From the IMG/VR virus record IMGVR_UViG_3300037225_000467, positions 1-37,053 of that record: a stretch of 37,053 bases of DNA; one strand, written 5' to 3'. The first letter of the stretch is position 1. Each line of letters starts with the position of its first letter. The notes below the pieces were generated by a model. It had not been told where the DNA came from and did not search any database. It worked only from the letters and a program-made list of their open reading frames with translations. This DNA comes from a virus. Of this stretch, positions 9,104 to 24,934 are shown piece by piece. Made by a program: the position numbers and the translations under genes.

Positions 9104-9727
9104 TTATAAAAAATCTTTATGTTTAATTTTAGTTATAATTCTCCTTCCATTGCGTGCAAATAATTCGGTTTTAGGGCGCAATACAAGACCTTCAGCTTGA
9201 AATTCTCCAAAATAGGATTTAATTTTATTATTTATTTCTTCTATCGCTTCTAAAAGCGTTCCTTCAAAAAGAACAGGAACTGCATGAATTTTTAATTTAG
9301 ATGCTATATCGAAAACCGCCCTACGCTCTAACCACCATCGACCTATTAAAACATCAAATAAATCAAATTTAATTTCATATCCGTAATACTTTCCCATGCC
9401 TTGAATTTTTCCACCATATCCTTCGCCAAATAATAATACTGAATTATCTGGAAATACTGTTTGCAATAATTCTATTGGAAACAATTCTTGCATTCTCGTT
9501 AAAATTTCCTTTGGTATTTGATTGTCAATGGTCTGTCTTCCGCCAAAAGTAATGATTTGTTTTTCATGATCCCAAAATATACGCAAATTGGTACCATCTA
9601 TTTTTTCCGTCCCTTGCCAAATATTATCTGCTAAATATTCAAATTCAGGCAATGAAAATTCAGCCATAAATTTATGCGTCTTCTCGTCACGTTTAAAAAT
9701 AGAATGTATTTTAGGATATTCAATCAT
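9104..9727 (-). CDS. RNA ligase, Rnl2/DRB0094-like nucleotidyltransferase
   Basis: 207 residues. Covalent nucleotidyltransferase motifs are present in order: motif I K-I-D-G-T-N at residues 42-47 (Lys42 would carry AMP), motif III-like LLFGEGYGGK, motif IV AEGLVLRP, and motif V ITKIKHKDF at the C-terminus. The length fits the catalytic core without an added domain. Such enzymes seal RNA ends, and phages use them to repair tRNA cleaved by host anticodon nucleases. I see no polynucleotide kinase/phosphatase in the window. It abuts the next upstream gene. The initiator-like tRNA in the same genome is a possible link. Confidence 0.85.
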   Translation of the reverse strand: MIEYPKIHSIFKRDEKTHKFMAEFSLPEFEYLADNIWQGTEKIDGTNLRIFWDHEKQIITFGGRQTIDNQIPKEILTRMQELFPIELLQTVFPDNSVLLFGEGYGGKIQGMGKYYGYEIKFDLFDVLIGRWWLERRAVFDIASKLKIHAVPVLFEGTLLEAIEEINNKIKSYFGEFQAEGLVLRPKTELFARNGRRIITKIKHKDFL

Positions 9728-10045: not shown

Positions 10046-10909
10046 CTACTCCTTGGAAATGTTAAGTATTGGCATTGCATTTCCAGTAACCTTTGGTAGT
10101 TCACCATTCCACCGTTCTATTTTTTTATTTTCGATTAGCATTTGCGTTAATGTTTTATTCAATAAATCATTAGCTTGTGATTGCGCCTTTGCTTGCACTA
10201 ATGTTGCTTCCGCAATACCTTCAGCTTTAGCAACATTGGCTTTTGCTAACATTTGTTGTTTTTGTAATTCATATTCCGCCTTCATCGCATCTTGTTGTGC
10301 GGCCATTTTTTGTTGCATTTGCGCTTCAATTGCCTCGGGTAAATGACTGGCTCCAAGATTGACTTTATCTAAAAGAAAGCCCATTTTTAATAATTCTTTT
10401 CCCAAATTAGTTTGGATTGCATCTTGTAATTTACCTCTATCCGATGAGATAAGCTCTGATAAAGACATTGAACCAGCTATATTTTGCGCTACAGTTATTA
10501 CCGTTCGGCGTATAAACGTGTTTTCAATATCCTCGATATCAGCGCCCTTGAAAGATTTAAAAACATTAGCCGCTTGTTCAGGCGAGGTGTTATAAGTTAT
10601 CGATAAATCTTGTTTTATATGCTGCCCTTCTTTTGTTGGTAAATCAATGCTGTCATCTTCTTTGTTTGTGTTTATCATTGAATAAGTGCGTAATGCCACG
10701 GGATAGCTTGTAACGCTTGTAATAAACGCCGTCTTAAATGTTAATCCCTGCCCTGTAGTCCTTAAATTACCTGTAACTTGATTGAACATAACGCCCGTAT
10801 AGCCCGGAGATATTATTGCAAAACTACCAAAAAACCCCATTAAAACAATTAAACCTACCGCTATTCCACCAACTAACTTACCTATATTCAATGCGCTTTC
10901 ATCGCTCAT
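10046..10909 (-). CDS. SPFH/band-7 (prohibitin/HflKC-like) membrane protein
   Basis: 287 residues from the ATG at 10909, preceded by TTGGAGAAAA; a longer frame to 10990 lies over another small gene. One N-terminal membrane helix (about 11-35, LVGGIAVGLIVLMGFFGSFA), then the band-7 domain beginning IISPGYTGVMFN, with the usual VNLGASHLPEAIEAQMQQK and a long Ala/Glu/Lys coiled coil (about 200-260). SPFH proteins form large rings on membranes and control proteases such as FtsH. A phage copy could alter host membrane physiology, the lysis/lysogeny decision or superinfection; that part is inference. The adjoining upstream gene is a tiny membrane protein. Confidence 0.85.
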   Translation of the reverse strand: MSDESALNIGKLVGGIAVGLIVLMGFFGSFAIISPGYTGVMFNQVTGNLRTTGQGLTFKTAFITSVTSYPVALRTYSMINTNKEDDSIDLPTKEGQHIKQDLSITYNTSPEQAANVFKSFKGADIEDIENTFIRRTVITVAQNIAGSMSLSELISSDRGKLQDAIQTNLGKELLKMGFLLDKVNLGASHLPEAIEAQMQQKMAAQQDAMKAEYELQKQQMLAKANVAKAEGIAEATLVQAKAQSQANDLLNKTLTQMLIENKKIERWNGELPKVTGNAMPILNISKE

Positions 10910-11027
10910 TTTTGTTTTCTCCAAAAGTTTTAATAAACCATTTATAAAATTTAATACTGTAAGGCAAACAAAGCTTTCCAAAAAATACAACTAACAATAC
11001 AAATAATATCAATTCTAATAGGGTCAT
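10899..11027 (-). CDS. Small membrane peptide upstream of SPFH protein
   Basis: A 42-residue frame, ATG at 11027, preceded by AGGAGTAAAAC, a strong ribosome site. One hydrophobic helix (LLELILFVLLVVFFGKLCL) followed by a basic/aromatic tail. It overlaps the SPFH start by 11 bases and supplies the ribosome site region for it. Its position suggests a partner of the SPFH ring. Function unknown. Confidence 0.6.
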   Translation of the reverse strand: MTLLELILFVLLVVFFGKLCLPYSIKFYKWFIKTFGENKNER

Positions 11028-19756: not shown

Positions 19757-20065
19757 TTATTCCTCAGGATCTATATCAAAATTTTCCATTTCCATTATTT
19801 CGTCAAAATTTTCTTGCGAAAATCCTAGATATAATTTCCGCAATTCTTTTAACGTTTTTTCTTCTCTACGGCCACCCCCCAAGCCGCATGGGCTCGTTAA
19901 TTTTTCTTTATCTAACCACGCGTTTAATTTTTCACGATTAGAAAAAACTCTCGTTTCACCAGCGATCGAAAGGCGTCCGGTCTTCGGATTTGGCTCGCCA
20001 GTTGTTGTTGAATGGCCGGAATAATATCGAAAACCGTAATATAATTTTTTAGATTCAGTGTTCAT
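19757..20065 (-). CDS. Partner gene of the first LPD29-like copy
   Basis: 102 residues from the ATG at 20065, with AGGAGG upstream; longer in-frame versions run through the neighbour and are not real. A YYGFRYYSGHSTTTGEPNPK start, then a segment FSNREKLNAWLDKEKLTS of the type found in short proteins that describe 'reading and labelling' small phage domains, and an acidic end. The ATG overlaps the stop of the LPD29-like gene (ATGA). The corresponding position after the second copy holds an unrelated gene. Function unknown. Confidence 0.6.
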   Translation of the reverse strand: MNTESKKLYYGFRYYSGHSTTTGEPNPKTGRLSIAGETRVFSNREKLNAWLDKEKLTSPCGLGGGRREEKTLKELRKLYLGFSQENFDEIMEMENFDIDPEE

Positions 20066-20484
20066 AAAGCCTCCTGCATAATTTGTGATTGTTGCCAAAT
20101 AAATTGATCTAAACATAAATGAAATTTTTCGCGGCATTCTTCATTTGTCCAAACATTATTTTTTTTGCAAATGATTTGCGTCAACTCTTCCTTTTTCTCC
20201 GGAGACCGCGAAAACATTAATTGTACATATTTTGTTTGGGGGATATCGTCCCTTCGGTTATTAATTTCGTATAAATCTTGGCTGCCGTCAAAAGATCCGT
20301 ACTCATATTTATCGATAATCACTTTTACTGCTTTACAAAATGGAAAATCTTTCCAACGGATGTTTACAGAATTTCCCATGCTATAATTTTGATTAGTCAC
20401 TTCAAATTTTGTATTAGGAAAAGCTGATTTCAATTCGGCGCGTATGGCTTTTGCTGCTTTTGCTGATTCTGTTAATGTTCTCAT
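20062..20484 (-). CDS. LPD29-like protein, copy 1
   Basis: 140 residues. AKAIRAELKSAFPNTKFEVT followed by SMGNSVNIRWKDFP, YEYGSFDGSQDLYE and PQTKYVQLMFSR matches my memory of the large-polyvalent-protein-associated domain 29, which occurs in phage and mobile-element proteins of unknown biochemical role. The C-terminal helical region follows. The protein is identical to the copy at 20839-21261. Preceded by AAGGAGAGC. The family assignment is by pattern only. Confidence 0.65.
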   Translation of the reverse strand: MRTLTESAKAAKAIRAELKSAFPNTKFEVTNQNYSMGNSVNIRWKDFPFCKAVKVIIDKYEYGSFDGSQDLYEINNRRDDIPQTKYVQLMFSRSPEKKEELTQIICKKNNVWTNEECREKFHLCLDQFIWQQSQIMQEAL

Positions 20485-20486
20485 TT
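20069..20486. repeat. Exact 418-bp direct repeat, copy 1
   Basis: Bases 20069-20486 and 20846-21263 (offset 777) appear identical base for base, covering the whole LPD29-like gene and its downstream ribosome site for the partner. No terminal inverted repeats or transposase accompany them. Confidence 0.85.
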
Positions 20487-20518
20487 TGTGCTCTCCTTGA
20501 TTTAATTAATATTAATTA

Positions 20519-20842
20519 TTACAATACGCGCACAGACATTGGTTTACCCCAGTCACAAGCTGTGCTCTCGTCCCAATCACCGGCGGCATCATCATCAGAG
20601 TGTGCGGCAATGTAACTATCTAAGATCTCCCATGTTACCAGATAGGTATCATAATATTTGCCATCATCGCGTTGTTGCAGATCGTAGTCGTCGTAGTTAT
20701 CTTGATCTTGTATGTAATCGCTTAACAATACCGCCACTGCCGCATAGCTAACATTGTTTAAATATGCCGCGTCTTGCAATAGTGCATATGCGATACCGTT
20801 ATAGCTAACAATACCGTATTTTGGATTTTTTCTGGTGTTCAT
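20519..20842 (-). CDS. Partner gene of the second LPD29-like copy
   Basis: 107 residues from the ATG at 20842 with AGGAGG upstream. An acidic Asp/Tyr-rich protein (YIQDQDNYDDYDLQQRDDGK) with an N-terminal beta-like segment (YGIVSYNGIAYALLQDAAYL). Not similar to the partner of the first copy beyond the first residues and the shared ribosome site. Coupled to the LPD29-like gene by ATGA. Its strong negative charge could suit a DNA-mimic or inhibitor, which is speculative. Confidence 0.6.
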   Translation of the reverse strand: MNTRKNPKYGIVSYNGIAYALLQDAAYLNNVSYAAVAVLLSDYIQDQDNYDDYDLQQRDDGKYYDTYLVTWEILDSYIAAHSDDDAAGDWDESTACDWGKPMSVRVL

Positions 20843-21261
20843 AATGCCTCCTGCATAATTTGTGATTGTTGCCAAATAAATTGATCTAAACATAAATGAA
20901 ATTTTTCGCGGCATTCTTCATTTGTCCAAACATTATTTTTTTTGCAAATGATTTGCGTCAACTCTTCCTTTTTCTCCGGAGACCGCGAAAACATTAATTG
21001 TACATATTTTGTTTGGGGGATATCGTCCCTTCGGTTATTAATTTCGTATAAATCTTGGCTGCCGTCAAAAGATCCGTACTCATATTTATCGATAATCACT
21101 TTTACTGCTTTACAAAATGGAAAATCTTTCCAACGGATGTTTACAGAATTTCCCATGCTATAATTTTGATTAGTCACTTCAAATTTTGTATTAGGAAAAG
21201 CTGATTTCAATTCGGCGCGTATGGCTTTTGCTGCTTTTGCTGATTCTGTTAATGTTCTCAT
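20839..21261 (-). CDS. LPD29-like protein, copy 2 (first gene of right early operon)
   Basis: 140 residues, identical in sequence to copy 1. It is the first gene after the strong promoter at 21302-21329. The ribosome site is AGGAGACCG. The 418-bp identity stops just inside the differing ribosome sites and partner genes, which suggests a recent duplication of this gene with a different cargo behind it. Confidence 0.65.
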   Translation of the reverse strand: MRTLTESAKAAKAIRAELKSAFPNTKFEVTNQNYSMGNSVNIRWKDFPFCKAVKVIIDKYEYGSFDGSQDLYEINNRRDDIPQTKYVQLMFSRSPEKKEELTQIICKKNNVWTNEECREKFHLCLDQFIWQQSQIMQEAL

Positions 21262-21263
21262 TT
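20846..21263. repeat. Exact 418-bp direct repeat, copy 2
   Basis: Second copy of the repeat described at 20069. The sequences diverge at once on both sides, so the duplication unit is one gene plus its translational junction. Confidence 0.85.
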
Positions 21264-21301
21264 CGGTCTCCTAAAAATTGATTAATATTAAATACACTTA
21301 T

Positions 21302-21450: not shown

Positions 21451-21456
21451 TATAAT
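21451..21456 (+). promoter_or_regulatory. -10 box of the tRNA gene
   Basis: A perfect TATAAT ends five bases before the first base of the tRNA (21462), so transcription would start at or within a few bases of the mature 5' end. No good -35 box is visible. Bases 21262-21661 hold this unit and the promoter upstream; 21541-21661 shows nothing else. Confidence 0.6.
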
Positions 21457-21461
21457 AGCGA

Positions 21462-21535
21462 CGCGGGGTGACGCAATCTGACAGCGTGCTTGGCTCATAA
21501 TCAAGTTGTTGTGGGTTTAAATCCCACCCCCGCAA
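21462..21535 (+). tRNA. tRNA with CAU anticodon, initiator-like
   Basis: A full cloverleaf of 74 bases can be drawn: acceptor CGCGGGG (21462-21468) with CCCCGCA (21528-21534), D stem ACGC/GCGT, anticodon stem CTTGG/TCAAG with loop CTCATAA (anticodon CAT at 21496-21498), T stem GTGGG/CCCAC, and A73. The first pair is a C1:A72 mismatch, the mark of bacterial initiator tRNA, and the acceptor equals that of E. coli tRNA-fMet. Departures: the three G:C pairs of the initiator anticodon stem are absent, the T loop is TTTAAAT instead of TTCAAAT, and the D loop has a single G. CCA is not encoded; CTTTTTT follows and could end transcription. It may be a functional divergent initiator or a decoy. Confidence 0.8.
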
Positions 21536-21661
21536 CTTTTTTAGATGCCATTACAAAATTTGCAACAATGGCTCGCATTTTGTACAGGATAATTAATCCA
21601 TACAAGCAATTCGTCTATGGTTTTTATAATTTTATAAATTTCATCACTTGGTTTCACTTTT

Positions 21662-22148: not shown

Positions 22149-22802
22149 TTAATTAGATAAAATAGTTAATACCTCATCTCGCAAGCGCGTTACTTCAAAT
22201 ATAGCTTTTTCCGCATCTTTAAGATCATAAACAGTACCGCCAAAAACCGCTGATTGTCTATAAGCGGTACGCAAATACAAAGTATTTTGTAAGCGAGGGA
22301 TTCCAAAATCATCTAATACATCTAAAGCTTCTTTGTTTAGATTGGTATTTGGTTGGCACATATTAGCAACTAATCGCGCCTGTAATGATTCATTGATATC
22401 TTTGGTTTGTTCTATTAGTTTTTGGATTCCTACGGCGGCCCATAGATCGGCCGGGCTTGGAATAACTGGCACGATAACTAAATCAGAAACTAATAGCGCG
22501 GATTGAGGGGTTGCACTATCAACGGCTGGCGGGCAATCGATTAATATAAAACCATATTGTCCCACGTATTTTTTGATTTCTCGATGTACTTTACTTCCTG
22601 CCGCACTAAGACCTGCTATTGTAGCAGGAAAAGGTTTTGTATCTTCGGCATTAGCTGCCCAACGGGTTGCCGTGCCCTGAGGATCTGCATCAACCACAAG
22701 CACCTTATGGCCGGCAATACCTAACGATCCGGCTAGTTGCATTGTAATAGTAGTTTTACCGCAACCGCCTTTTTGATTGGCGAGCGAAATAATCTTAGTC
22801 AT
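22149..22802 (-). CDS. parA: ParA partition ATPase
   Basis: 217 residues, the small type without an N-terminal HTH. Deviant Walker A KGGCGKTT (residues 11-18), ADPQGTATRW after it, and LIDCPPAVD as Walker B region identify a ParA/MinD-type ATPase. The chain continues with PVIPSPADLWAAVGIQKLIE. It should position plasmid copies on the nucleoid together with the small ribbon-helix-helix partner downstream. The ATG follows AGGAGACC. Repeated AT-rich motifs lie in the 380 bases upstream. Its presence is the main evidence for plasmid-type prophage maintenance. Confidence 0.92.
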   Translation of the reverse strand: MTKIISLANQKGGCGKTTITMQLAGSLGIAGHKVLVVDADPQGTATRWAANAEDTKPFPATIAGLSAAGSKVHREIKKYVGQYGFILIDCPPAVDSATPQSALLVSDLVIVPVIPSPADLWAAVGIQKLIEQTKDINESLQARLVANMCQPNTNLNKEALDVLDDFGIPRLQNTLYLRTAYRQSAVFGGTVYDLKDAEKAIFEVTRLRDEVLTILSN

Positions 22803-24155: not shown

Positions 24156-24458
24156 GTGAAAACCCTTTCTTATAAAATAATTTTTGTGCCATCTAATATC
24201 ATCGCTGGCTATGATGGTATGAATTATTATGCTGCTCAAGAACTTGGTTTTGATTATTCTTTTGATAAAGATCAGATATTAGTAAACAAAGAATTAAGTT
24301 TTTTGTTTAAAATACAAACCATAATCCATGAAATTACAGAAATTAATTATATGAAACAAGGAGTGCATTACTGGCGCGCGCATAAACACGCTTACGAAGC
24401 AGAAAATGATAAAAATAAAATAAAATTATTTGAAACTGCACTAAAAGGCAAGATATGA
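24156..24458 (+). CDS. Small zincin-like protein with HExxE motif
   Basis: 100 residues. The start is GTG at 24156, three bases after the ferritin stop; an overlapping ATG is in a frame that closes at once. IIHEITEINYMKQGVHYWRA followed by HKHAYEAEN gives a set of His/Glu residues similar to short phage proteins with HExxE...HxxxxE that look like metallopeptidase remnants. No secretion signal. The neighbouring genes overlap it. A role in metal handling would match the ferritin, but this is speculation. Confidence 0.65.
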   Translation: MKTLSYKIIFVPSNIIAGYDGMNYYAAQELGFDYSFDKDQILVNKELSFLFKIQTIIHEITEINYMKQGVHYWRAHKHAYEAENDKNKIKLFETALKGKI

Positions 24459-24934
24459 ACGATCTAAGAATTTGGCAAGCAATCTCGGAAGACATCCAGG
24501 AAATATGCGGTTTAAGCAAGGAACTAACGGAATATGACCGGCAATTTGATTCTACTATTAGCTTAAACTGGAACATTGAAGATTATATAAAAAAGTCAAT
24601 ACATGAAAATTTTGTAGTAGTAGCAGAAAAAAATGATGAAATAATTGGATATCTTATTTGTTCACAAGGAAACATTGAAGATTATCGAAATAATCACATT
24701 TTAGAAATTGAAGAATTATTTGTAAAAGATGGGTTTCGATCTCTCGGAGTCGGAAAAAGATTAATCAATTATGCGCTTGATTGGTTAAAAGAAGCCATTA
24801 AAGAGCAGGGCATAACAAGCGACGGGATTAGGGTTTCGGTTAAAGTATTAGCTAAAAACAATAGGGCAATTAGATTTTACCGAGAGATGGGTTTTGTCGA
24901 TTACGATCTAATAATGGAAATGGAGATTAAGTAA
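24455..24934 (+). CDS. GNAT N-acetyltransferase
   Basis: 159 residues of the GNAT fold. The acetyl-CoA site is EIEELFVKDGFRSLGVGKRL, with R-S-L-G-V-G-K as the P-loop-like motif A, and the closing AKNNRAIRFYREMGFVDYDL is motif B. The substrate is unknown; candidates are aminoglycosides, polyamines or proteins. The ATG overlaps the preceding gene by four bases. It belongs to the ferritin cargo unit. Confidence 0.88.
   Translation: MNDLRIWQAISEDIQEICGLSKELTEYDRQFDSTISLNWNIEDYIKKSIHENFVVVAEKNDEIIGYLICSQGNIEDYRNNHILEIEELFVKDGFRSLGVGKRLINYALDWLKEAIKEQGITSDGIRVSVKVLAKNNRAIRFYREMGFVDYDLIMEMEIK

Follow-up and report, generated by a model that had tools for sequence, protein, structure and literature searches.

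A phage-borne initiator-type tRNA with a relaxed anticodon stem and a compensated A19:U56 pair

A single tRNA gene in a phage genome

The window, the whole stretch of DNA analysed here, is a complete virus record of 37,053 bases. Its sole tRNA gene (ARAGORN, Rfam) was called as tRNA-Met(CAU) by ARAGORN and scored 55 bits against Rfam RF00005 (threshold 29, E 2.4e-9), and its cloverleaf folded at -26.8 kcal/mol (z -2.2 vs shuffles). The gene, on the + strand, sits between two - strand genes that lie about 400 bases apart, and it therefore needs a promoter of its own (Table 1).

Table 1 Features of the tRNA locus and of the phage genome around it
Feature	Position	Strand	Evidence or remark
Initiator-type tRNA gene, tRNA positions 1-73	21462-21535	+	ARAGORN, Rfam RF00005, fold, class score
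5' acceptor strand CGCGGGG, C1 facing A72 (21534) unpaired	21462-21468	+	Sequence; Rfam alignment, 1:72 non-standard
D arm: A10:U25, C11:G24, G12:C23, C13:G22; G18-A19 replacing GG (A19 = 21481)	21471-21487	+	Sequence; D-arm score
Anticodon arm CTTGG-CTCATAA-TCAAG	21489-21505	+	Sequence; comparison with viral and cellular CAU tRNAs
T loop TTTAAAT; U56 (21518) with tertiary partner A19 (21481), replacing G19:C56	21516-21522	+	Covariation
TATAAT, possible -10 element, five bases before the tRNA	21451-21456	+	Sequence; promoter scan
T6 run just 3' of the tRNA, where transcription may end or 3' processing occur	21537-21542	+	Sequence
RNA ligase (PF09414)	9104-9727	-	Nearest named relative 49.5%, Manatee Spring phage (MW202615)
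SPFH/Band 7 protein, ParA-like partition protein	10046-10990 and 22149-22802	-	
GNAT acetyltransferase	24455-24934	+	
Large terminase	25488		Phage head gene
Portal	27037		Phage head gene
Head morphogenesis	28520		Phage head gene
Protease	33678		Phage head gene
Major capsid	34881		Phage head gene

The acceptor (CGCGGGG/CCCCGCA) has C1 opposite A72 followed by six G:C pairs, and the anticodon is CAU (21496-21498), exactly as a preliminary description of this DNA had it. G2:C71 and C3:G70 next to the 1:72 mismatch and the loop CTCATAA are those of canonical tRNA-fMet. The discriminator is A73 and CCA is not encoded; the T stem is GTGGG/CCCAC and the Levitt pair is A15:U48. The anticodon stem consists of C27:G43, U28:A42, U29:A41 (21491:21503), G30:C40 (21492:21502) and G31:U39 (21493:21501). 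Canonical tRNA-fMet carries three consecutive G:C pairs at 29:41, 30:40 and 31:39, which the preliminary description reported as missing; that is true of the two outer ones, now U:A and a G:U wobble, but the central pair is intact, so that one of the three is kept. In the D stem an elongator-like C11:G24 stands in place of the canonical A11:U24, a feature absent from that description.

A blastn search with the 74-base tRNA matched no E. coli gene, so the comparison with E. coli metY/metZ tRNA-fMet uses its known sequence. It shares CAU, C1:A72, the acceptor, G2:C71, C3:G70, A73, CTCATAA and G30:C40 with the window tRNA, and it differs in having all three G:C pairs (vs the U29:A41 and G31:U39 flanks), A11:U24 (vs C11:G24), G19:C56 (vs A19:U56), G15:C48 (vs A15:U48) and an encoded CCA (vs none).

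The upstream TATAAT and the downstream T run had been read as signs of a self-contained minimal gene. Both elements are present, but the promoter evidence is weak, because the promoter scan found no -35 element for this TATAAT and the same strand of the window holds 47 copies of the motif; no canonical terminator was called after the tRNA, T6 run included. Cellular tRNA genes in the loci examined have TATAAT mostly 9-11 bases upstream, vs five here. A leaderless promoter was considered and rejected, since viral tRNAs show diffuse upstream TATAAT without a peak at a gap of five. A direct duplication of 461 bases (20058-20518 and 20835-21294, 97.6% identical), either recent or an effect of assembly, contains 140-aa genes (phrog_15549, - strand) that differ by one base in 423, and a perfect TTGACA-16-TATAAT promoter lies upstream of the second duplicate gene (21329-21302, - strand).

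Megablast of the window against 50,697 phages gave no match. The capsid protein was most similar to Pseudomonadota prophages (35%, E 1e-40, 77 of 349 genomes), followed by Bacillota (best E 6e-29, 44 of 299 genomes); matches were few in Patescibacteria (3 of 239 genomes, best 3e-16) and also weak in Bacteroidota. Among named phages, those of Staphylococcus and Bacillus gave the best terminase matches, with about 33% identity or similarity, which points loosely to Firmicute phages. Because terminase and capsid conflict, the host was left unassigned; strong ribosome-binding sites, present in 22 of 32 window genes, are evidence against a Bacteroidota host. The sister phages L475 (capsid 72%) and L474 have head genes in common with the window, and no such tRNA was found in their partial contigs, so within the partial sequence examined the tRNA gene is accessory at best. 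The RNA ligase of the window phage is possibly a tRNA repair enzyme.

Initiator class and the compensated tertiary pair

Position tables were built from 225 CAU tRNAs with unpaired 1:72 and R11:Y24 and from 135 with paired 1:72 and Y11:R24. The window tRNA scored +32.9, compared with medians of +52 for the initiator set and -57 for the elongator set, 95% of which fell below -37. The acceptor contributed +19.7, the anticodon stem +7.6 and the D arm +3.9, the last falling between the two sets. Some of the sequences behind the tables had been selected for CGC at 69-71, which inflates the acceptor score; without the acceptor the score was +13.2 vs an elongator limit (95%) of -29.5. These scores bear out the initiator ancestry proposed earlier, and by sequence class the tRNA is of initiator type with a hybrid D arm. 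Since it lacks the three G:C pairs and A11:U24, both of them defining features of canonical tRNA-fMet, it was not classed as one, though it would most likely work like one.

One alternative is a divergent elongator tRNA-Met, or a tRNA-Ile2 read through lysidine, that supplements AUG or AUA decoding. Its C11:G24 is elongator-like, a tolerant EF-Tu could in principle use the acceptor, and Ile2-type CAU tRNAs are common in phages. Paired 1:72, the elongator tRNA-Met feature that allows EF-Tu binding, is nevertheless replaced by C1:A72, unpaired as in initiators, and both the class score and the anticodon-stem score lie on the initiator side. The sequence class also argues against tRNA-Ile2 identity, and we regard an elongator role as quite unlikely.

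The D loop and T loop had been described as departing from consensus, and G18-A19 and TTTAAAT with U56 are indeed there; they are, however, a single compensated change, A19:U56 for G19:C56, rather than separate departures. ARAGORN identified 2293 distinct tRNAs across all the loci retrieved. In this covariation sample U56 occurred in 26; GG was absent from the D loop in 24 of these, every one of which had GA, vs only 46 of 2263 C56 tRNAs (Fisher p 1.8e-36). All but one of the 26 U56 tRNAs were viral (25, window included). The swap is thus recurrent and, in this sample, almost confined to viral sequences, which speaks for a folded window tRNA that selection maintains, and against a decayed gene. 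A functionless relic of a captured host initiator gene would fit the divergence of several arms, the lack of CCA and the solitary position between genes of the other strand; random decay would not spare fully paired stems or make the D-loop and T-loop changes compensate each other, and a relic is highly improbable. On each of three single viral contigs (L269, L342 and L408), several isotypes all had U56 with D-loop GA, as if the swap had spread through the tRNA set.

Anticodon stems of viral and cellular initiators

An exact viral search with the window anticodon arm returned 11 matches, mostly CAU tRNAs with weak 1:72 ends, and the wider viral pattern U29 G30 G31 returned many, of which only the matches listed were taken. 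For stem counts we used patterns without stem constraint, parsed by ARAGORN; the counts pool two pattern scans, one of which sampled tRNAs with a six-base variable region. Among the matches listed, viral CAU tRNAs with a 1:72 mismatch and R11:Y24 had G30:C40 in 73 of 77 cases and all three G:C pairs in 14 of 77; those with a 1:72 mismatch and Y11:R24, the window type, had them in 28/31 and 6/31, and the elongator type (paired 1:72, Y11:R24) in 23/54 and 0/54, all these patterns fixing CTCATAA, CGC at 69-71 and a regular T arm, the sequences being related and IMG/VR including proviruses. Judged by these counts, a wide set of viral initiator-type tRNAs appears to keep G30:C40 and to relax the other two pairs, and viruses seem to hold less strictly than most bacteria to the textbook rule of three G:C pairs.

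The window tRNA belongs to this viral relaxed-stem initiator set (CAU, unpaired 1:72, G30:C40 kept, at least one flanking G:C lost), which was defined within this analysis and is descriptive rather than an outside standard. Its anticodon-stem score is near the viral initiator-type median of +9.9. The earlier characterization of the stem as non-initiator thus holds for the loss of two G:C pairs, but among viral initiator-type tRNAs the stem is ordinary, and it retains the most important pair.

No close relative of the window tRNA was found among the viral and cellular CAU tRNAs compared. The viral initiator-type tRNAs with CTTGG/TCAAG or TGG/CCA stems (L002, L004-L006, L010-L012, L020, L025 and the U29:A41 CAU tRNAs of the named phages CcrColossus, RB23 and PegLeg) have in common with it CAU, a weak or unpaired 1:72 and U29:A41 with G30:C40; L025 also has A19:U56, and L002 also has the C1:A72 acceptor and C11:G24. 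They differ from the window tRNA in that G31:C39 and A11:U24 are present in most and CCA is encoded in many. A tRNA of Microbacterium phage A3Wally (L525), annotated as fMet(CAU), has the stem GAAGT/GCTTT (A29:U41, G30:C40, U31:G39), in which only the middle pair is kept. Four viral CAU tRNAs (L374, L382, L429 and L432) combine the C1:A72 initiator acceptor with an elongator-like D arm (GCTC/GAGC or GCGC/GAGC), and three of them have A31:U39 stems. In the open-access literature we found no account of phage or Patescibacteria initiators whose three-G:C stem is relaxed.

Among 100 Pseudomonadota genomes, the initiators listed had CCC or CCT at 39-41, that is, three G:C pairs or A29:U41, and those of Bacillota and Bacteroidota had CCC almost throughout. 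The U29 pattern matched one of 299 Pseudomonadota genomes, a Neorhizobium that is the seed (centre) genome itself; this copy shows 81-90% similarity with an IMG/VR phage (L020) across several hundred bases and adjoins phage terminase and portal genes. Of seven 'cellular' U29:A41 copies checked outside Patescibacteria, five (L153, L161, L167, L187, L205) adjoin phage-type proteins and two (L164, L206) have one neighbouring protein each. Outside Patescibacteria, U29:A41 can serve as a marker for phage-derived initiator genes in bacterial genomes.

The preliminary description would have been contradicted by host initiators with the same anticodon stem. The window triplet U29:A41/G30:C40/G31:U39 occurred in no cell among the matches listed for the phyla covered in this comparison. 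All genome-collection matches listed have C39, and every G31:U39 wobble among the matches listed came from a viral record. The closest cellular type is that of the chromosomal initiators of Patescibacteria (Saccharibacteria, Moranbacteria and others), which resemble the window tRNA in U29:A41, G30:C40 and a C1:A72-type acceptor and differ in keeping G31:C39, A11:U24 and G19:C56. In Patescibacteria records (L132-L211) the U29:A41 initiator was often the only one matched.

With a patescibacterium as host, relaxed initiator stems would be normal and the tRNA an ordinary captured host gene, as the frequent sole initiators of Saccharibacteria, Moranbacteria and related groups could suggest. The capsid, matching Pseudomonadota best and then Bacillota, the strong ribosome-binding sites and the confinement of G31:U39 to viral records among the matches listed all speak against such a host, which we consider very unlikely.

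A proposed role in initiation

Unpaired 1:72 with G2:C71 and C3:G70 permits formylation, with A11:U24 as a secondary determinant (PMC7949028), and a chimera of initiator acceptor and elongator anticodon arm is fully formylated (PMC4611024); stem-swapped initiators likewise retain charging and formylation (PMC10486304; PMC2268962). Pairs 30:40 and 29:41 are read in the P site by A1339 and G1338 of 16S rRNA, and initiation in vivo falls about 20-fold when G30:C40 is changed to C:G (PMC11497404). The E. coli 3GC mutant (U29:A41, C30:G40, A31:U39) is charged and formylated and inactive in initiation (PMC10486304), but gains activity under a shortage of host initiators or of formylation (PMC10486304; PMC7949028).

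The window tRNA is probably a phage initiator-type tRNA that is charged and formylated by the host and enters the P site on a minimal determinant. A host enzyme would add CCA, MetRS would charge the tRNA with methionine through CAU and A73, and methionyl-tRNA formyltransferase would act on the unpaired 1:72, G2:C71 and C3:G70, while the open 1:72 would also keep the tRNA off EF-Tu. Initiation would then proceed through the A-minor contact of G30:C40 with A1339, U29:A41 and G31:U39 replacing the flanking G:C pairs. Since both the formylation end and the A1339 contact are kept, the tRNA should start proteins. Against this stands C11:G24 in place of a secondary formylation determinant, and the loss of the outer pairs may also cost activity, because the 3GC mutant does not initiate. 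In a healthy cell the window tRNA would perhaps initiate less well than the host's own, and it would do better once host initiators run short.

This initiator role is preferred over a decoy, an elongator or a gene captured from a patescibacterial host, each of which is less likely. As a decoy or poison, the tRNA would be charged and formylated, fail late in initiation and tie up IF2, formyltransferase or immature 30S subunits, slowing host translation. Precedent comes from the E. coli 3GC mutants, which besides their inactivity disturb 30S maturation (PMC10486304; PMC7949028). Those mutants, however, also lost G30:C40, which is kept in the window and in 95% of viral initiator-type tRNAs among the matches listed; a decoy would not need to retain the A1339 contact, and the phage depends on the same ribosomes. 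We think a decoy unlikely.

For a phage initiator, the likely benefit would be a stock of initiator that the phage itself controls and that perhaps escapes cutting by host anticodon nucleases. VapC-type toxins cleave tRNA-fMet where the anticodon loop meets the stem (PMC8522696; PMC7180214). Phage tRNAs have been proposed to escape anticodon nucleases, with VapC raised as a case; the same study reports that phages as a rule do without a tRNA-fMet gene of their own where this tRNA is a VapC target (van den Berg et al. 2023, PMC10264068). The window tRNA resembles the escape tRNAs of that study in being phage-borne with a changed anticodon arm; the change there is in the loop, whereas here it is in the stem, including the first pair below the loop (G31:U39), next to the VapC cutting site. 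It is speculation that the changed stem could let the phage initiator survive VapC-type cutting; an RNA ligase is also encoded.

Phages as a group may have escaped the three-G:C rule, keeping G30:C40 for A1339 and varying its flanks, so that the host ribosome would accept their initiators and nucleases or stem proofreading aimed at the host stem would miss them; we offer this only tentatively, as a possibility with the odds somewhat against it. The wider viral pattern is a more interesting result than the single tRNA. A question that follows is why phages should have initiators of their own at all, whether for supply or for outlasting host tRNA-cutting defences. With all three G:C pairs in 14/77 and the middle pair in 73/77 of the matches listed, the pattern also amounts to a natural mutagenesis experiment on P-site requirements, and it agrees with the structural view, in which the signal comes mostly from G30:C40 and A1339.
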